Shown piece after piece: positions 2,302 to 39,797 of a stretch of DNA of 64,000 nucleotides. This DNA is from Streptomyces sp. NRRL S-31 (GTDB taxonomy: Bacteria; Actinomycetota; Actinomycetes; Streptomycetales; Streptomycetaceae). Location: NCBI RefSeq assembly GCF_000718775.1, contig NZ_JOCB01000038.1, forward strand, positions 1 through 64,000. Direction: 5' to 3'. Each line of letters starts with the position of its first letter. Position 1 is the stretch's first letter. The translations under genes and the position numbers were made by a program. The notes under the pieces are model-generated. The model was given only the letters and a program-made list of their open reading frames with translations. It did no database searches and was not told where the DNA came from.

Positions 2302-3588
2302 ATGCGCAGCTCTTCCCGGACCTTCTCCCGGAGGGGAGTACTCGGCCTCGGCGCGGGCGCGGCGGCCGCCGCCTCGCTCGCCGGCTGCGGCGGTTCCACG
2401 TCCTCGGACGGCGCCGGGCGTCCGGACGGTTCCAGCACCCGGCAGGGGAGCAAGGGGGACGGGACGCGTCCGGCGCGGCCCATCGGCGACGGCTCCACGT
2501 CCTTCACCGGCGCGCAGCCGCACCAGCCGGCCAAGCCGGAGCCGCTGGAGCCGGGGCAGACCCCGCCCCAGTTCGTGGTCTTCTCCTGGGACGGCGCCGG
2601 CGAGGTCGGCAACGGCCTCTTCCCGCGCTTCCTGGACCTGGCCAAGGAGCACGGCGCGAGCATGACCTTCTTCCTCTCGGGGCTGTACCTGCTGCCCGAG
2701 TCGAAGAAGCGGCTCTACGACCCCCCGAACAACCCGCGCGGCGCCTCCGACATCGGCTACCTCACCGACGACCACATCAAGGCCACGCTGGAGAACGTGC
2801 GCCGGGCCTGGCTGGAGGGGCATGAGATCGGCACCCACTTCAACGGGCACTTCTGCGCCGGCACGGGCACCGTCGGCAACTGGACCCCGGAGCAGTGGGG
2901 GAGCGAGATCCAGCAGGCCAAGGCGTTCGTGAAGGAGTGGCGGACCAACACCGGCTGGACCGACCTGCCCTCGCTGCCGTTCGACTACGACAAGGAGCTG
3001 GCCGGCGGCCGTACGCCCTGTCTGCTGGGCCAGAACAACCTGCTGCCCAAGGCCCGGGAGCTGGGCTGGCGCTACGACGCCTCCTCGCCGGGCGGCCGCC
3101 AGGTGTGGCCGGACAAGCGCCTGGGCATATGGGACCTGCCCTTGCAGCAGATACCTTTCCCCGGACGTTCCTTCGAGGTCCTGTCCATGGACTACAACAT
3201 GCTCGCCAACCAGTCGGTGAACTCGACCAAGGCGCCCGCGTACAACTACCCGGGATGGCGCAAGCAGTCGGCGCAGGCGTACATCCAGGGATTCCAGCGG
3301 GCGTACGAGACGAACCGGGCGCCGTTCTTCGTCGGCAACCACTTCGAGCAGTGGAACGGCGGCATCTACATGGACTCCGTCGAGGAGGCCTTCACGCACA
3401 TCGCGCGGGAGAAGGAGAAGGGCGCCGACGTCCGGCTGGTCTCCTTCCGGCAGTTCGTGGACTGGATGGACGCGCAGAAGCCCGAGGTGCTCGCCAAGCT
3501 GCGCTCGCTGGGTGTCGGGCAGCAGCCCACCGGGGGCTGGAAGGAGTTCCTGCGCGCGACCGGTTCCGCCTCCTCCGACGCGGCCTGA
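2302..3588 (+). CDS. Tat-exported lipoprotein, polysaccharide deacetylase-like
   Basis: The 428-residue product starts with a twin-arginine signal (SRRGVLGLG), an Ala-rich hydrophobic stretch and a lipobox LAGC, so it should be a surface lipoprotein exported folded. A Ser/Gly/Pro-rich linker follows to about residue 90. The rest resembles a NodB-type deacetylase barrel: FSWDGAGE in the position of the metal-binding TFDDG loop, and HEIGTHFNGH as the metal His-x3-His equivalent. The first motif is atypical, so activity may differ from chitin or peptidoglycan deacetylation. The gene stands alone, with 146 bp of promoter-like DNA upstream. Confidence 0.8.
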   Translation: MRSSSRTFSRRGVLGLGAGAAAAASLAGCGGSTSSDGAGRPDGSSTRQGSKGDGTRPARPIGDGSTSFTGAQPHQPAKPEPLEPGQTPPQFVVFSWDGAGEVGNGLFPRFLDLAKEHGASMTFFLSGLYLLPESKKRLYDPPNNPRGASDIGYLTDDHIKATLENVRRAWLEGHEIGTHFNGHFCAGTGTVGNWTPEQWGSEIQQAKAFVKEWRTNTGWTDLPSLPFDYDKELAGGRTPCLLGQNNLLPKARELGWRYDASSPGGRQVWPDKRLGIWDLPLQQIPFPGRSFEVLSMDYNMLANQSVNSTKAPAYNYPGWRKQSAQAYIQGFQRAYETNRAPFFVGNHFEQWNGGIYMDSVEEAFTHIAREKEKGADVRLVSFRQFVDWMDAQKPEVLAKLRSLGVGQQPTGGWKEFLRATGSASSDAA

Positions 3589-3785
3589 GCGGGTCCCGGG
3601 CGGGGGCCGGGTGGTGTCCGGGTGGGGTCCGAGCGGGCCTTGAGGGGAAGGCCGCAGGGGCCCCTGACGGACCCGGGCGGGGGTCGGTGTCTGAAATGTC
3701 CCGTGTAAATACGCCCTGAAATGCGGTTTTCCGCCCGGCAGGGGGGTGCGCGAGATCCCCGGAACAGGCATGCGAAACTTTTCAC

Positions 3786-4376
3786 ATGAGTACCCGTAGC
3801 CGCGCCGTCCTGCTCACCGCTGTGGCCGCCGCCGCGGCCCTGTCCCTGTCCGCGTGCGGCAAGGGCGGCATCTCCGGCGGCGGTGGCGACACCCACTTCG
3901 TCACCGGCAGCAACGGCATCGACACCGTCCCGGCCGCCAAGCGCGCCGCGGCCCCGGACCTGTCGGGCAGGACCATCGACGGCAAGACCCTCGACGTCGC
4001 CGACTACAAGGGCCAGGTCGTCGTCGTCAACGTCTGGGGCTCCTGGTGCGGGCCGTGCCGCAGCGAGGCGCAGTACTTCGCCAAGGTCTCCAAGCAGTAC
4101 GAGGGCAAGGGTGTCCAGTTCGTCGGCATCAACACCCGGGACTCCAGCACCACCCCCGCGGTCGCCTTCGAGAAGGAGCACGGCGTCGGGTACCCGAGCC
4201 TGTACGACCCCACGGGCAAGCTGATGCTCCGCTTCAAGAAGGGCACCCTCAACCCGCAGCTCGTCCCCTCCACGCTCGTCATCGACCGGCACGGCAAGGT
4301 CGCCGCGCGGGCCCTGGAGGCGCTCGACGACACCGGGCTGCTGGAGATGCTCAAGCCGGTCCTCGCGGAGAAGTGA
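3786..4376 (+). CDS. TlpA/ResA-type thiol-disulfide oxidoreductase lipoprotein
   Basis: A 196-residue extracytoplasmic thioredoxin-fold protein with a signal peptide and lipobox (LSAC, Cys24). The redox motif WCGPC is at residues 87-91, and a cis-proline region VPSTLVID follows near residue 160. It probably reduces apocytochrome c heme-binding cysteines, taking electrons from the CcdA protein encoded one base downstream. No strong ribosome-binding site precedes the ATG; a leaderless or weakly initiated mRNA is possible. It heads the system II cytochrome c maturation operon. Confidence 0.9.
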   Translation: MSTRSRAVLLTAVAAAAALSLSACGKGGISGGGGDTHFVTGSNGIDTVPAAKRAAAPDLSGRTIDGKTLDVADYKGQVVVVNVWGSWCGPCRSEAQYFAKVSKQYEGKGVQFVGINTRDSSTTPAVAFEKEHGVGYPSLYDPTGKLMLRFKKGTLNPQLVPSTLVIDRHGKVAARALEALDDTGLLEMLKPVLAEK

Positions 4377-4377
4377 C

Positions 4378-5151
4378 GTGAGCGCACTGCTGACGCTGGC
4401 CGCGGAGACGGGCCGCAACCAGACGGTCCTGCACGGCGCTCTGCCGGTCGCCCTGCCGATCGCGCTGATCGCGGGGCTCGTCTCCTTCTTCTCGCCCTGT
4501 GTGCTGCCGCTGGTCCCCGGCTACCTCTCCTATGTGACCGGCGTCGCGGGCACCGACCTGGCCGAGGCCAGACGGGGGCGGATGGTCGCCGGGGCCTCCC
4601 TGTTCGTGCTCGGCTTCAGCGCCGTGTTCGTCTCCAGCGGGGCGCTCTTCGGCTACTTCGGCGCCAGCCTGGTCGACTACCAGTCCACCCTCACCCGGGT
4701 GCTCGGCGCGGTCATGATCGTCATGGGCGTGTTCTTCATGGGGCTGCTGCCCTGGTTCACCATGCGCGAGTTCCGCTTCCACAAGCGGCCGACGGGCGGC
4801 CTGCTCGGCGCGCCCCTGCTCGGCGCCCTCTTCGGCGTCGGCTGGACGCCCTGCATGGGCCCGACGCTCTCCTCGGTGAACATCCTCTCCATCAACGAGT
4901 CGAGCGCCGCGCGCGGCTCCCTGTTGATGGTCGTCTACTGCCTCGGCCTCGGCGTGCCCTTCGTCCTCACCGCGATCGGCTTCCGCAAGGCGCTCGGCGC
5001 CTTCGCCTGGGTCAAGCGCCACTATGTGTGGGTGATGCGCATCGGCGGCTCGATGATGATCGTGACCGGTGTGCTGCTGCTGACCGGTGCCTGGAGCGGC
5101 CTGATCCAGCAGATGCAGACCTGGTCCGACGGTTTCAATGTGGGGATCTGA
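4378..5151 (+). CDS. ccdA: Cytochrome c biogenesis protein CcdA (DsbD-like membrane domain)
   Basis: This 257-residue membrane protein has about six transmembrane segments. It should carry reducing equivalents from cytosolic thioredoxin across the membrane to the TlpA-like protein. The two intramembrane cysteines are visible: Cys41 in FFSPCVLPLVPGYLS and Cys159 in GWTPCMGPTLS. A GTG start begins one base after the upstream stop. Only three bases separate it from resB, so the four genes form one operon. Confidence 0.93.
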   Translation: MSALLTLAAETGRNQTVLHGALPVALPIALIAGLVSFFSPCVLPLVPGYLSYVTGVAGTDLAEARRGRMVAGASLFVLGFSAVFVSSGALFGYFGASLVDYQSTLTRVLGAVMIVMGVFFMGLLPWFTMREFRFHKRPTGGLLGAPLLGALFGVGWTPCMGPTLSSVNILSINESSAARGSLLMVVYCLGLGVPFVLTAIGFRKALGAFAWVKRHYVWVMRIGGSMMIVTGVLLLTGAWSGLIQQMQTWSDGFNVGI

Positions 5152-5154
5152 CCG

Positions 5155-6864
5155 ATGAGCAAGACCGACACCGACAACAGCCGGGAGCAGGAGGAGCTGG
5201 GAGCCGCCGGTTCCCGGCTGTCCACCGCCCCGCAGGAGGAGCCGGTGAGCCTGCCGGGCCTCGGTGTCGTCGGCTGGGCGCGCTGGTGCTGGCGGCAGCT
5301 GACCTCCATGCGGGTCGCGCTGCTGCTGCTCCTGCTGCTCTCGCTCGGCGCGATCCCCGGCTCGCTGATCCCGCAGACCGGCGCGGACGCGAGCAAGGTC
5401 GAGGACTTCCGCGCGGCCCACCGGACGCTGGCACCCGTCTACGACAAGCTCGGGCTGTTCCACGTGTACAGCTCGGTGTGGTTCTCCGCGATCTACATCC
5501 TGCTGTTCGTCTCCCTCATCGGCTGCATCGTGCCCCGCACCTGGCAGTTCGTCGGCCAGTTGCGCGGCCGTCCGCCGGCCGCGCCCAAGCGGCTGACCCG
5601 GCTGCCCGCCTACACGACCTGGCGCACGGAGGCCGAGCCGGAGCAGGTCCGCGAGGCCGCGCTCGCGCTGCTGCGCAAGCGCCGCTTCCGGGCGCACGTC
5701 GCCGGTGACGCCGTCGCCGCCGAGAAGGGCTACCTGCGCGAGGTGGGCAACCTGGTCTTCCACGTCGCCCTGATCGTGCTGCTGGTCGCCTTCGCCTCCG
5801 GCCAGCTGTACAAGTCGGACGGCACCAAGCTGATGGTGGAGGGCGACGGCTTCTCCAACGCGCTGCCGATGTACGACGACTTCAAGTCCGGCACCCTGTT
5901 CCGGACGGACGACCTGGTCCCGTTCAGCTTCGACCTCAAGGACTTCAGGGGCACCTACGAGGTCAGCGGCCCGAACCGGGGCACCCCGCGCACCTATGAG
6001 GCGAAGATCCGCTACAGCGAGGGCGCCTACGGCAAGGAGAAGCCGACCACCATCAAGGTCAACGAGCCGCTGAAGATCGGCGACTCCAAGGTCTACCTGG
6101 TCAGCCACGGCTACGCGCCCGTCGTCACGGTCCGGGACGGCAAGGGCGCGGTCGTCTACCACGACGCCGTACCGCTGCTGCCGCTCGACGGCAACGTCAG
6201 CTCCAACGGCGTGGTCAAGGTGATGGACGGCTACCGGGACGCGAAGGGCCGCAAGGACCAGCTCGGCTTCCAGGCGTTCTTCGTGCCGACGTTCGACCCG
6301 AAGAGCGGCACGATGCTCTCGCAGTTCCCGGCGCTGGTGAACCCGCTGCTGGCGGTGAACGCCTACCACGGCGACCTGGGTGTGAACTCGGGCATCCCGC
6401 AGAGCGTGTACCAGCTCGACAAGAAGCACATGAAGGCGTTCAAGGACGCCAAGGGCCAGCTGCTGAAGAAGCTGCTGAAGCCGGGCGACACCATGACGCT
6501 GCCGGACGGCGCCGGATCGATCACCTTCGAGAAGGACGTCAAGGAGTGGGCCGGCTTCGAGATCGTCCAGGAGCCGGGCAGCGGCTGGGCGCTGGCCGGC
6601 GCCCTCGCCGCGATCTTCGGCCTGGCCGCCTCCCTGTTCATCCAGCGCCGCCGCGTGTGGGTGCGCGCGGTGCGCGGTGCCGACGGCGTCACGGTGGTCG
6701 AGATGGCCGGTCTCGGCCGCAGCGAGTCCGCGAAGGTCCCCGAGGAACTGGGCGACCTCGCCGGCCACCTCTACGACCAGGCGCCGGGGGCCCCCGACCC
6801 CGGCGACACACCCGCAGCAACCCCCGACCCTCAAGCCGTACCTGCCGAAGGGGCTGAGAAGTGA
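5155..6864 (+). CDS. resB: Cytochrome c biogenesis protein ResB (Ccs1)
   Basis: The 569-residue protein is one half of the system II heme transport and ligation complex. It has a hydrophilic N-terminal tail and transmembrane segments near residues 50-70, 105-125 and 195-215. A large extracytoplasmic domain follows (about 220-475), then a last membrane helix near 480-500 and a charged cytosolic tail rich in Pro and Ala. Its stop overlaps the GTG of the next gene by four bases, as expected for a pair whose products work as one complex attaching heme to apocytochrome c. Confidence 0.92.
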   Translation: MSKTDTDNSREQEELGAAGSRLSTAPQEEPVSLPGLGVVGWARWCWRQLTSMRVALLLLLLLSLGAIPGSLIPQTGADASKVEDFRAAHRTLAPVYDKLGLFHVYSSVWFSAIYILLFVSLIGCIVPRTWQFVGQLRGRPPAAPKRLTRLPAYTTWRTEAEPEQVREAALALLRKRRFRAHVAGDAVAAEKGYLREVGNLVFHVALIVLLVAFASGQLYKSDGTKLMVEGDGFSNALPMYDDFKSGTLFRTDDLVPFSFDLKDFRGTYEVSGPNRGTPRTYEAKIRYSEGAYGKEKPTTIKVNEPLKIGDSKVYLVSHGYAPVVTVRDGKGAVVYHDAVPLLPLDGNVSSNGVVKVMDGYRDAKGRKDQLGFQAFFVPTFDPKSGTMLSQFPALVNPLLAVNAYHGDLGVNSGIPQSVYQLDKKHMKAFKDAKGQLLKKLLKPGDTMTLPDGAGSITFEKDVKEWAGFEIVQEPGSGWALAGALAAIFGLAASLFIQRRRVWVRAVRGADGVTVVEMAGLGRSESAKVPEELGDLAGHLYDQAPGAPDPGDTPAATPDPQAVPAEGAEK

Positions 6865-35627: not shown

Positions 35628-36434
35628 CTACTTGCCTGACTGCCAGTAGTCCAGCCAATCGTGGGCCAGGCGGGACATGTTCTTTTTCCACGTCTGGGGA
35701 TCGGTGCTGGCGATCTCGTTCCACGCGTGGGCGTTCGCCTCGGAGAACACCCGCACCGACGCGTCGGGCGCCGTTGCCCACGAGGGGAAGCGATCGCGCG
35801 CCCACGCGTCCGCCGAAGGCGCGGAGTGTCCGGCTTCCATCAGGCGCAGGATGAGGACAGCAGGGTCGATCCATGCCGCTCCGCGGGTCGGCCATGCCCA
35901 GTCGATGAGGTGCGCACGCGTCGTGATGAGCATGTTGTGCGGCGCGAGGTCCGTGTGAAGCAAGGTGTCGCCGACGAGTCGCTCGACGCCGGCAGGGCCT
36001 GCGTATCCGCTCCATCTGTCCTCGGCGCGCTTGAGCTCGATGTCAGGGCACGGGGTGTTCTGTAGCTCCACCAGCGCACGGGCGACGAGCGGCAGGTCGG
36101 ACGAACCAGGGGTGTAGTCGGCGTGGCGACCGGCGATGCGCTCGTAACCGATCAGGTCCCAGCCGGCGGCTTGGACGTGCCACAGCAGCCGGGGACACGA
36201 CGGCGGTAGGTAGGGGTTGATCGTGGCCTCGCGCTGCTGTGTCCGAGCCTGGGGGTGATCGGTGGGCACGCCCTTGACGAACAAGGTCGCGTCAGCGGTC
36301 TGAACAGTGGCGGCGATGCCGGAATTGGCGCCCGCGTCGGCGGTCTGGGCGCGCACTACCGGGCCGGTGTGCTGCTCGACGGCGGCGCGTGCGGCGAGCG
36401 GTAGGTCATCCCAGTGGATGCGGTCTACTGGCAT
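35628..36434 (-). CDS. Aminoglycoside-phosphotransferase-fold kinase in peptide cassette
   Basis: A 268-residue protein kinase-like phosphotransferase. Lys54 (LFVKGV) fits the ATP lysine. LLHTDLAPHNMLI carries the catalytic Asp162 and Asn167 (His160 precedes), and LIDWAWP gives the metal-binding Asp178. APH-fold enzymes phosphorylate antibiotics or small metabolites, but some act on precursor peptides in peptide natural-product clusters (thioviridamide TvaC is an example). It lies 78 bp downstream of the precursor-like gene, behind a hairpin. It could be a tailoring, resistance or unrelated kinase. Confidence 0.8.
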   Translation of the reverse strand: MPVDRIHWDDLPLAARAAVEQHTGPVVRAQTADAGANSGIAATVQTADATLFVKGVPTDHPQARTQQREATINPYLPPSCPRLLWHVQAAGWDLIGYERIAGRHADYTPGSSDLPLVARALVELQNTPCPDIELKRAEDRWSGYAGPAGVERLVGDTLLHTDLAPHNMLITTRAHLIDWAWPTRGAAWIDPAVLILRLMEAGHSAPSADAWARDRFPSWATAPDASVRVFSEANAHAWNEIASTDPQTWKKNMSRLAHDWLDYWQSGK

Positions 36435-36461
36435 GTCGGGTTCCTGGGGGTGGACGGGCGA

Positions 36462-36493
36462 GCCGCCCCCGACCCTACGCGGGCGGGGGCGGC
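36462..36493 (-). terminator. Hairpin between precursor gene and kinase gene
   Basis: GCCGCCCCCG and CGGGGGCGGC form ten perfect pairs around a 12-base loop, 20 bp after the precursor stop codon in the direction of transcription. A partial terminator here would let the small peptide be made in excess over the kinase. Confidence 0.55.
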
Positions 36494-36512
36494 CCCATGG
36501 TGAGTGCGGTTT

Positions 36513-36740
36513 TTAGTAAGGCTGGTCGTCGTCGGCCTGGCACGAGCAGCCGAGGCTCTCGGAGAACGTGCCGATCTCCTTGGTGATCCGGAACTCGTCG
36601 TCAGCGATCGGCCGGGACGTGATCGCGACCGGGAGCGGTGCGGGGGTGGCGGTCGGCCGGGGGGAGATCGCGACGAGGACGGGGCCCGGGGCGGCGGGCG
36701 GGGCCTGTTCCGTGGTGCGGGGCTCGATGACGGTTGCCAT
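36513..36740 (-). CDS. Putative RiPP precursor peptide, C-terminal Cys-Ser-Cys
   Basis: A 75-residue peptide with no signal peptide. Residues 1-48 form a Pro/Ala/Thr-rich leader with two related segments (PVLVAISPRP and PLPVAITSRP). The C-terminal part starts DDEFRITKEIGTF and ends SESLGCSCQADDDQPY, with the only cysteines at 65 and 67. The ATG at 36740 has an ideal GTGAGG site and comes three bases after the radical SAM stop. The size, two-part composition, Cys/Ser core and gene position are those of a radical-SAM-modified precursor. I know no named family with this sequence. Confidence 0.75.
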   Translation of the reverse strand: MATVIEPRTTEQAPPAAPGPVLVAISPRPTATPAPLPVAITSRPIADDEFRITKEIGTFSESLGCSCQADDDQPY

Positions 36741-36743
36741 GGT

Positions 36744-37889
36744 TCACCTCACTGGTTCGGGGTCGGGATGCTGGCAGTACATATTTCGTGGTGCCTTCGC
36801 CTCCTGGTAGAGCTTGGCCATGGGGCGGCAGGTGGTGCAGCCGCCCGGATTGCCGTCGGCGTCTTTCTGGCCGAACGTGCAGCCGGCGCAGCCCCCGGTG
36901 CGAAGCTGTAGGCCGTCGGCGATGCCGCCGAGGCGTTTGAGTCCCTCGATGCCTTCCTGCATCAGCGGGATGTGTGGGTCGCGGCCGATCTTGCATATGG
37001 ACGCGTGGCCGAACGGGTCGGCGTGAAAGAACGTGTGTCCGGCGTTGCAGCCGGTGAACGGCTTCCGTTTACGGAGGTACTTGGCGGCCTGTTCGGGGAT
37101 CGGGGTCGCGTCGCCCTGGATGGTGGGCGACATGTTGGTGAACACGAACACCTGGCCGTACCGCTCGGCGAGCTGTTCCATGGCGGCGAACTCGTCTGCG
37201 TTGTCCTTGGTGATGACGATGTTCAACTGCAAGCGCAGACCAGCCTCGCGGGCGGCGTCGAGTCCACGGATGAAGCGGCCGAACGCTCCTCGGTTGCGGG
37301 TGAATCCGTCGTAGGTTTCCTCCGCCGCGCCATAGACGCTGAGGGACAGGTGATGGGGCGGGCGTTCGGTGAGGGTCTCCAGGATCTTCGGCTTGTGGAG
37401 CTGTGATCCGTTGGTGGAGATCGTCAGCATGATGCCGAGGTCATAGGCGTACGAGTACGCCTCGGGGAAATCGCGGTCGATCAGTGGCTCGCCGCCCGTG
37501 ATCTGAAGCCACAGCACGCCAGCGTCATGCATGATGTCGAGCAGCCGGACCTTGTCCGCCCAAGGCATCCCCTCGAACCGCTTCAATCCGAGGTAGCAGT
37601 GCGGGCAGTCGTAGTCGCAGCCCTTGTTGATCTCGTAAGACGCGCGGGCCATGCCATACGGGGAGGGGGCGCGCACAAGGACGCTGTCGCGCAGGGAGCG
37701 TCGTGCGGGGAGTTCGAGCCCCCATGCCTGGCGTGCGCCGTCGATGAGCCAGTGCGGCGCCTCGGCGCCCGTGCTCGCGACCTTGCTCAATTCCAGGTAC
37801 CGAGCGAACGGAATCTGCACGCTGTTGTCGTCGCCGGGACGTAAGACGAGGTACTCGTCGAGGAACGGGCTGGCGATCAGTTCGGGCAT
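36744..37889 (-). CDS. Radical SAM protein with C-terminal auxiliary cysteine cluster
   Basis: A 381-residue enzyme. The SAM-binding iron-sulfur triad is Cys91, Cys95, Cys98 (GCDYDCPHCYLG), and the GGEP motif is at 132-135. The C-terminal third has seven cysteines (281, 299, 334, 337, 351, 354, 372), beginning CNAG, as in SPASM or twitch domains that carry extra clusters in peptide maturases. The start ATG at 37889 follows GGAGG. Leu16 is a TTA codon, which in Streptomyces needs the bldA tRNA. The frame continues upstream without a stop into an ATP-binding remnant. The likely substrate is the peptide encoded next. Confidence 0.88.
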   Translation of the reverse strand: MPELIASPFLDEYLVLRPGDDNSVQIPFARYLELSKVASTGAEAPHWLIDGARQAWGLELPARRSLRDSVLVRAPSPYGMARASYEINKGCDYDCPHCYLGLKRFEGMPWADKVRLLDIMHDAGVLWLQITGGEPLIDRDFPEAYSYAYDLGIMLTISTNGSQLHKPKILETLTERPPHHLSLSVYGAAEETYDGFTRNRGAFGRFIRGLDAAREAGLRLQLNIVITKDNADEFAAMEQLAERYGQVFVFTNMSPTIQGDATPIPEQAAKYLRKRKPFTGCNAGHTFFHADPFGHASICKIGRDPHIPLMQEGIEGLKRLGGIADGLQLRTGGCAGCTFGQKDADGNPGGCTTCRPMAKLYQEAKAPRNMYCQHPDPEPVR

Positions 37890-38180
37890 GAGTCCTCCAT
37901 CTGGAAGCGGAAGCGCGGCGGTGTCGACCCCCGCCCGCAGGGGTGGGCGATGATGCGGCGGGTGCCGAAGACGTCGAAAGGGAGGCCTGGTCCTTCGCGA
38001 GCGTGGTGCACAGCACGAGTTGGTCGAGGCGTTGGTGGCGGGTTCGGAGACACCGAGCAGAACGTCGTCGACCTGGTCCGAGGCCGTGATAAACCACGCC
38101 TTGAGCGTGGCCCGCGCGAACGTACGGGCCTGCGGAACGGCGCGGGCATCGCAGGGGAACCAGCGTGTCATCTCGGGCAC
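37890..38180 (-). pseudogene. Truncated ATP-binding (HATPase) protein remnant
   Basis: GTG at 38180 has a strong GGAGG site. It reads MTRWFPCDARAVPQARTF and then DDVLLGVSEPATNAST, which is the N-terminal half of a Streptomyces anti-sigma-type ATPase up to its N-box. After that the similarity stops and low-complexity Arg/Pro sequence runs in frame into the radical SAM start. The nucleotide-binding G-boxes are missing, so it cannot be a working ATPase. It may simply provide upstream translation into the maturase. Confidence 0.6.
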
Positions 38181-38444: not shown

Positions 38445-39797
38445 ATGAAGAATCCGAACGAGGATCTCGAACACTGGCTCACGCGGTCAGGCATGAGTCG
38501 CAAGGAACTCGCGCGTCGCGTGAAATCCGCAGCTCAGACGCGGGGACAGGCGCACATCACGCCGGACGCGACGACCGTACGGCGTTGGCTGGCCGGCGAT
38601 CAGCCGCGCCCGCCCGTGCCCGAGATCCTCGCCGACGTCTTCTCGGCGCACTTCGCATACCGGGTCACAACGTAAGATCTCGGGCTCGGTGAGGGTCAGA
38701 CAGTCGAACGCTTGCTCATTTACAGCTCGTCCTTCGCGGTTACCGTGGAAGCAGTGACCGACTTGGGGAGGGCGGACGTGGACCGTCGCAACTTCTTGGC
38801 CGCAGCGCCGTTCGCCGCTGTGGCGGCCGTCGGGCCATCCCGCGACTGGCTGCTCAACACGCTTGACCAGCAGCCGGAACCGGGGCCGCGGGTGCGTCTT
38901 GAGGACGTGACGGCGGTCCGGAACATGTTCAGTGAGTTCCAGAAGATGGACGTTCTACAAGGCGGCGGCTCAGGCCGACTCATCCTCGCCGAGTACATGA
39001 ACCAGCATGTCTATCCGCTGCTGCGCCGTACTTATACCGAGGAAGTGCGGCGGGCGCTGTGCGAGGCGGCGGCCGAGCAGACGTACTTGCTGGGATGGAT
39101 GGCGTACGACAACGGCGAGCACGGAACGGCGCAGCGATACCTCATCCAGTCGCTACGACTTGCCGAGGAGTCGACGAACGCCGCGCTCGGCGCGCACGTG
39201 CTTGCCGGCATGGCCGATCAAGCGACGTTGCTCGGCCACCCGGAGGAAGGGCGCCGGCTCGCGCAGGCCGGCCGCGCCGGTCTCGGTAACGGGGGCTCGC
39301 CTGCTTGTCTGGCCGACTTGTGGGCACTGGAAGCGCGGGCACTCGCCAAGCTCGGCGACAAGACCGCGGCAGCTCATGCCGTGGCCCAATCGGAGACCGC
39401 GTTCAGTCGAGTACGCCCGGAGAAGGAACCGGAGTGGGCGACGTTCATCGACCCCGCGTATTTGCACGGCGAACACGCGAACACGTTCCGGGACATCGAC
39501 GATCCGGCGAACGCCGCAGAATACGCGCGCCAGTCCATCGACCATGCGCGCAGGCAGCGGCGCGCGCGGCGGGGGGCGATGTCGCAGGCTGCGCTCGCGG
39601 TCTCGCATTTGCAGCGCCGGGACCTGGAGGCCGCGCACTCCGCCGGTTTGCGGACGTTGTCCCTGTCGCGTCAGGTGAAGAGCTCGCGCTGCGTCGAGGC
39701 GGTGCAGGACTTGCAGCGGCGGATGCAGCCCTACGGTACCCATCGACTCGTCGCGGACTTCAACGAGCGCGCTCGCGAGCTTGTCGCTGCGGCGTGA
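38445..39797 (+). pseudogene. XRE/TPR (NsdA-like) regulator interrupted by in-frame TAA
   Basis: Residues 1-76 form a helix-turn-helix domain (SGMSRKELARRVKSAAQT, then VRRWLAGDQPRPPVPEILAD). A TAA at 38673-38675 stops it, and the same frame then continues DLGLGEGQTVERLLIYSS into a 360-residue Ala-rich helical repeat region with TPR-like units (RRNFLAAAP near its start). Family members are a single protein of about 450 residues. A single C-to-T change (CAA to TAA) would explain it. Restart at TTG 38712 could make the second half alone. It diverges from the peptide cassette. Confidence 0.72.

Follow-up and report, generated by a model that had tools for sequence, protein, structure and literature searches.

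A candidate three-gene peptide cassette of Streptomyces sp. NRRL S-31 in which the tailoring gene appears to track the aromatic residue of the core

What does a radical SAM enzyme do when its gene is followed by the gene of a short peptide and then by that of a kinase? The question is raised by a locus on the minus strand of a 64,000-nucleotide stretch of Streptomyces sp. NRRL S-31 (assembly GCF_000718775.1, contig NZ_JOCB01000038.1, positions 1 to 64,000), referred to as the window. Herein, the genes stand in the order maturase, 3-base gap, peptide, 78-base gap, and kinase. The best explanation is a three-gene cassette for a ribosomally synthesized and post-translationally modified peptide (RiPP), with leader docking, core modification, and tyrosine phosphorylation; we hold this reading as a whole to be fairly probable. 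New in this system is that the tailoring gene seems, from the loci compared, to track the aromatic residue of the peptide core. The main features are:

36744..37889, minus strand: maturase gene, radical SAM/SPASM-type, 381 aa
36513..36740, minus strand: precursor peptide gene, 75 aa
36516..36548, minus strand: core CSCQADDDQPY, peptide residues 65–75, by the family motif
35628..36434, minus strand: APH-fold kinase gene, 268 aa

The maturase and the peptide almost certainly form a precursor–enzyme pair. A species-genome scan yielded 124 maturase relatives, of which the best 80 loci were kept (52–96% identity), and a related short peptide lies downstream of the maturase in all 80. The core motif was found by script in 77 of them and by eye in L007, L024, and L039, each with one residue altered. 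In most loci, the peptide begins slightly before or shortly after the end of the maturase gene (−4 to about +20 bases), and the peptide is 39 to 76 aa long. In the reverse search, with the window peptide as query, 14 of 200 family genomes matched, and in all 14 the match lies beside a maturase gene, which is truncated in one case (G631). The original prediction had proposed this pairing and named two findings that would speak against it, namely homologous maturases without an adjacent small peptide and a peptide frame not conserved at the codon level. Neither was encountered: the peptide is present in 80 of 80 loci, and that of the window is under purifying selection. Its ratio of nonsynonymous to synonymous substitution rates (dN/dS) is 0.22, 0.28, 0.30, and 0.42 versus L004, L005, L006, and L008, respectively, and 0.59 versus L003, with few differing sites. 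Over the last 34 codons, changes fall mainly on third positions (1, 0, and 8 changes at positions 1, 2, and 3 for L004; 4, 1, and 6 for L008).

At genus level, 39 of 199 genomes carry the maturase, compared with 59 of 297 at family level and 16 of 394 at class level, and a phylum-wide draw gave 6 of 396 genomes at an E value of 1e-30. Hosts include Streptomyces, Streptacidiphilus, Kitasatospora, Frankia, Amycolatopsis, Glycomyces, Actinomadura, Nocardiopsis, and Catellatospora. This wide spread rules out the idea of a lone cassette. In the genome of the window itself, the maturase is single-copy, the second match being distant (24% identity, E value 1.4e-5).

For the core, 187 loci were surveyed (the first 80, the window, 97, and nine from further scans), and the motif is present in 185, of which 179 were read by script and six by eye. 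The remaining two are L186, which ends 55 bases past the match, and L188, in which the peptide frame is damaged. Ten loci were left out: L102, L103, L104, L106, L082, and L189 with a broken or cut maturase, L186 and L188 without a core, L077 with an altered core end, and L213, as its third gene runs past the contig end. Collapsing identical maturases led to 153 loci. Their tallies are partly the result of construction, since the Cys and some other positions were preset in the search patterns; script-missed loci were read by eye. Of the 153 cores, 117 follow C-x-C-x-A-G-[D/E]-D-[N/Q]-P-aromatic, with Asp/Glu at position 7, that is four past the second Cys, in 117 of 117 and Pro in 116 of 117, and the other 36 have one Cys, in the form C-x-[D/N/E]-D-N-P-[Y/F], all 36 with D, N, and P. 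The aromatic position is the last residue in 115 of the 117 CxC-type cores and is followed by one more residue in 34 of the 36 single-Cys cores; two CxC cores have Asn in its place. C65 and C67 are the sole cysteines of the window peptide, and their conservation, a check suggested in the original prediction, extends to the two-Cys cores but not to the 36 with one Cys. A strict Cys65/Cys67 pair as a family rule is ruled out by the latter.

The third gene belongs to one of two alternative families, an APH-fold kinase or a GNAT acyltransferase. In the 153-locus set, the kinase is found with 95 of the 97 Tyr cores and with none of the 56 His, Phe, or Asn cores. The Tyr cores comprise 91 with the kinase only, four with kinase and GNAT, and two with GNAT only; the non-Tyr cores (44 His, 10 Phe, and two Asn) comprise 55 with GNAT and one with neither, and GNAT is present in 57 of the 58 kinase-less loci. 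The span searched for the third gene was 1.5 kb and was extended to 1.4–10 kb downstream (median 10 kb), in which no kinase match was found in any of the 56 non-Tyr loci nor in the two kinase-less Tyr loci. The locus with neither gene, L173, carries the Phe core CGNDNPF and small open reading frames (ORFs) of unknown function where the kinase would stand; it belongs to the single-Cys group, the other 35 members of which all have the kinase. In L012, L205, L206, and L207, the peptide with its Tyr core is followed by GNAT and then by the kinase. Because some lineages carry both, the two enzymes probably act at different sites. Those left-out loci that are readable for both core and third gene obey the same rule (L102 and L104, Tyr with kinase; L103, L106, L082, and L189, His with GNAT).

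The original prediction had left the kinase a choice of targets, from the peptide or its product to an unrelated metabolite. Its presence with Tyr cores and absence from non-Tyr cores make the peptide a likelier target than an unrelated metabolite, although the number of independent changes behind this preference is small. The match is a good lead, not proof, and phosphorylation of the core tyrosine is given slightly less than an even chance. As predicted, an APH-fold kinase is next in line after the peptide: the ORF matches Pfam APH with 24.1 bits at a cut-off of 23.2. It is probably active, because the catalytic residues K54, E69, H160-x-D162-x4-N167, and D178 are conserved in 39–40 of 40 members of the kinase family and a fold search with the model finds aminoglycoside and choline kinases.

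How the maturase might recognize and alter the peptide is suggested by the following parts of the two proteins:

37665..37889, minus strand: RRE-like (RiPP recognition element-like) N-terminal domain of the maturase, residues ~1–75, strand-strand-strand-helix-helix, by AlphaFold2 and structure alignment
37596..37619, minus strand: CxxxCxxC radical SAM cluster motif, C91/C95/C98 (C91-x3-C95-x2-C98)
36774..37049, minus strand: SPASM-like region C281-x12-G-x4-C299, C334-x2-C337, C351-x2-C354, C372, by cysteine spacing
36570..36599, minus strand: leader segment DEFRITKEIG, peptide residues 48–57, predicted by the model to bind the maturase

The CxxxCxxC cysteines are conserved in 152–153 of the 153 nonidentical maturases. 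Seven further cysteines follow (281, 299, 334, 337, 351, 354, and 372), and each of all ten Fe-S cysteines is conserved in 151–153 of 153. The C-terminal region is presumably of SPASM type, an assignment that leans on the consensus cysteine spacing. A Pfam scan of the maturase gave Radical_SAM as the sole match, with no SPASM and no RRE family match. The N-terminal domain is modeled well (AlphaFold2 block means of 91–97 over residues 1–70), and structure alignments with SkfB and SuiB begin at maturase residue 2–3. In the AlphaFold2 model of maturase and peptide joined in one chain, the leader segment reaches a mean predicted local distance difference test score (pLDDT) of 87 with a strand at residues 51–53; the same peptide joined to the kinase stays below 50. 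RRE-type recognition of the leader by the maturase is very probable, as far as models can indicate.

A course of events can be proposed from this. The strand-helix segment of the leader (residues ~48–61) would dock on the RRE-like N-terminal domain of the maturase, which is the well-supported step. The maturase would then modify the C-terminal core C-x-C-x-A-G-[D/E]-D-[N/Q]-P-[Y/H/F], the likeliest modification being an oxidative thioether that joins a Cys to a carbon in the acidic stretch, here Cys67 to Asp70–72. Such a Cys thioether stands at about even odds. The APH-fold kinase would phosphorylate Tyr75 of the core, as the matching of gene and residue suggests. Leader removal and export may be left to general host proteins, and a hairpin after the peptide gene may keep the level of precursor mRNA above that of kinase mRNA.

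Several observations weigh against this scheme. The loci are related and the core residue changes at least four times on the FastTree tree, and the Tyr–kinase match is weakened by these few independent events: four of four independent contrasts agree for the kinase at a sign-test p of 0.125, whereby fewer than six contrasts cannot reach 0.05. On the same tree, GNAT gives about two contrasts in the opposite direction and about two without a difference. In an earlier set of 148 maturases, three of four kinase contrasts went the same way and one showed no difference. The Glycomyces loci L026 and L042 have Tyr cores with GNAT and no kinase match. Within the joined models, the peptide finds no docking place on the kinase, and maturase residues 331–380 are modeled poorly. 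The maturase–peptide complex, the prediction of which had been suggested as a check, speaks for the leader but places the core without confidence (pLDDT of 49 and 31 in the last two blocks). Where an alignment starts is not a clean test of an RRE, because CteB, which bears one too, aligns from residue 77–78 onward only, and two rows of NifB, which has no peptide substrate, align back to residue 17–19. The wider kinase family has a match in 76 of 199 genomes at 1e-15, and relatives also occur without a maturase; among 15 kinase loci inspected that lack an adjacent maturase match, none has an intact maturase, one (L197) retains a peptide, and one (L194) a maturase remnant. These relatives speak against a kinase that serves this cassette exclusively, an idea that is not upheld. 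Finally, no protease or transporter was found among the nine most frequent neighbor families, and rarer families (at most 8 of 81 loci) may hold one.

Kinase and GNAT might instead be immunity enzymes or unrelated neighbors that would inactivate either the mature peptide or some other antibiotic and take no part in making the peptide, the Tyr match then reflecting old lineages. Both folds, APH and GNAT, are typical of resistance enzymes, the GNAT has weak matches at 15.6 bits to streptothricin acetyltransferases and at 16.6 bits to AAC(6′) acetyltransferases, far under the cut-off, and the kinase relatives without maturase as well as the mere four independent contrasts fit this explanation. 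It accounts poorly for the absence of the kinase from all 56 non-Tyr cores and for L173, where a Phe core lacks the kinase inside a kinase-bearing group. We regard it as unlikely, though it is only partly distinct from the proposed cassette because immunity acting on the core Tyr still fits.

Less likely again is a pathway resembling that of mycofactocin or pyrroloquinoline quinone (PQQ), in which the maturase targets the aromatic residue at the end, through oxidative decarboxylation or C–C bond formation, and the peptide is the scaffold for a small cofactor-like product that is capped by kinase or GNAT after release. The terminal place of the aromatic position in the CxC-type cores (115 of 117), the rank of the mycofactocin maturase as second-best among the NCBIfam matches listed (78 bits, cut-off 265), and the lack of a protease or transporter among the frequent neighbors speak for such a pathway; it is contradicted by the extra residue in 34 of 36 single-Cys cores and the Asn in two CxC cores, and it leaves the conserved Cys and Asp without a role. 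That the short ORF is no precursor but a regulatory leader or a small structural protein is very improbable. The strong hairpin downstream and the flanking regulators (NsdA-like and HATPase) would agree with it, whereas the conservation at the amino-acid level, the fixed C-terminal motif, the variable length and gap, the maturase linkage in 80 of 80 loci, and the leader docking in the model would not. An anti-phage viperin was considered as well, as PADLOC pVip models match the radical SAM core (55.9 bits); the RRE-like domain, the SPASM-like cysteines, and the peptide argue against it.

Does the proposed cassette belong to a named family? Public databases call the pair just "radical SAM protein" and "hypothetical protein", an NCBIfam search with the peptide gave no match, and Pfam and NCBIfam returned just general domain names; the original prediction had recognized no named precursor family. 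Among the best 25 of 45 NCBIfam matches of the maturase are heme b synthase (84.7 bits), the mycofactocin maturase TIGR03962 (78 bits versus a cut-off of 265), and the StsB-family sactipeptide maturase NF045574 (71.1 bits versus a cut-off of 625); all three lie far under their cut-offs, and the maturase is a member of neither of the latter two. It differs from the SkfB/StsB-family sactipeptide maturases by the short C-terminal Cys-acidic-Pro-aromatic core and the kinase or GNAT gene.

Freyrasin has the exact spacing CX3D. According to one report (PMC11002830), freyrasin carries Cys-Asp S-C-beta links, and PapB is able to form Cys-Glu S-C-gamma links. With such ranthipeptides (freyrasin of PapB, thermocellin of CteB) the system shares the Asp/Glu four past the second Cys in all 117 CxC cores, a likeness in sequence; ranthipeptides have many Cys, whereas here there are one or two, and the single-Cys form has another spacing. 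The streptide synthase SuiB combines an RRE with SPASM, and the streptide core has a Lys/Trp motif. The maturase resembles SuiB in the structure alignment from residue 2–3, but its cores lack the Lys/Trp motif and the identity is 19–20%. In mycofactocin biosynthesis, the peptide has a terminal aromatic residue and the RRE is a separate protein; beyond the NCBIfam rank, the maturase MftC differs in this respect, as the RRE is apparently fused to the maturase here. APH-like kinases occur in the clusters of class V lanthipeptides, thioviridamide, and kintamdin, where they are partnered by a HopA1-type lyase and directed at Ser/Thr. The APH-fold kinase in a RiPP cluster is the likeness to these, but here it tracks Tyr, and no HopA1-type lyase is found among the nine most frequent neighbor families. 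The system appears, from sequence and models, to work like an RRE-SPASM RiPP of an unnamed family and not to be one to file as a sactipeptide or ranthipeptide. Tentatively, and with some doubt, it can be put forward as a new RiPP family with a Cys/Asp cross-link, in which an APH-fold kinase would generate phosphotyrosine and non-Tyr lineages would use an acyltransferase at another site. Literature searches, core strings included, gave no description of the motif or cassette, which may sit unnamed in the radical SAM RiPP atlas (Clark and Seyedsayamdost 2022).

The finer layout of the locus includes two further elements:

36745..36750, minus strand: GAGGTG ribosome site of the peptide, within the 3′ end of the maturase gene
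36462..36493, minus strand: G+C-rich hairpin between the peptide and kinase genes, without a T run

The maturase ORF starts with ATG at 37889 and its TGA ends at 36744, and the peptide starts with ATG at 36740. The structural description in the original prediction (CxxxCxxC at 91–98, seven further Cys, 3-base gap, ribosome site, 75-aa peptide with C65 and C67 alone) proved accurate, with the exception of the cassette end at 38180. This is the far end of the open frame shared with the maturase, a 478-aa ORF from GTG 38180. Its part upstream of the maturase (37890–38180, minus strand) matches HATPase_c_2 with 19.0 bits, below the cut-off of 27.4, and looks like what is left of an RsbW-like HATPase, outside the maturase proper. 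Just downstream of the peptide stop codon, a stretch of 75 bases folds with a shuffle z under −2 at 71 of 77 loci, the window included, compared with 4 of 80 random windows from the same loci; the hairpin is likely an RNA stabilizer or attenuator.

Of the neighbor families, 1–9 and 24 were viewed, and representatives of six (1–5 and 7) were profile-scanned. Regulators are common near the cassette, namely NsdA-family TPR proteins (L067: 340.8 bits, cut-off 75) and RsbW-like HATPase, with HATPase-type genes near 16 of 81 loci; XRE-like regulators (by eye) and a NUDIX protein are other neighbors. The window holds an NsdA-family-like helix-turn-helix/TPR regulator at 38445–39797 (plus strand) with 94% identity over 450 residues to the neighbor copy of L003, broken by one in-frame stop at 38673–38675. 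A tRNA-gene search of the window found none, and the idea of a tRNA-linked island was dropped.

Two of the kinase loci differ in their surroundings. In L197, the kinase and a PGCNDDNPYR peptide persist with no maturase match nearby. In L194 (~3023–6491, reverse), a kinase relative follows graspetide-like ATP-grasp and PIMT genes, assigned by eye, without an intact maturase; a 74-aa peptide ending in DDTSDPYAMR is present, and a 30-residue maturase remnant lies in between. A graspetide cluster and this cassette may have come into contact there.

The cassette occurs in about one in five of the genus genomes sampled (39 of 199) and has no name of its own in the libraries consulted. The natural swap of kinase and acyltransferase, matched to one core residue, offers a direct test of the role of a tailoring enzyme. 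If the proposed scheme is true, one group of APH-fold kinases would have turned into peptide tyrosine kinases, and a fold of antibiotic resistance would act on a ribosomal peptide.

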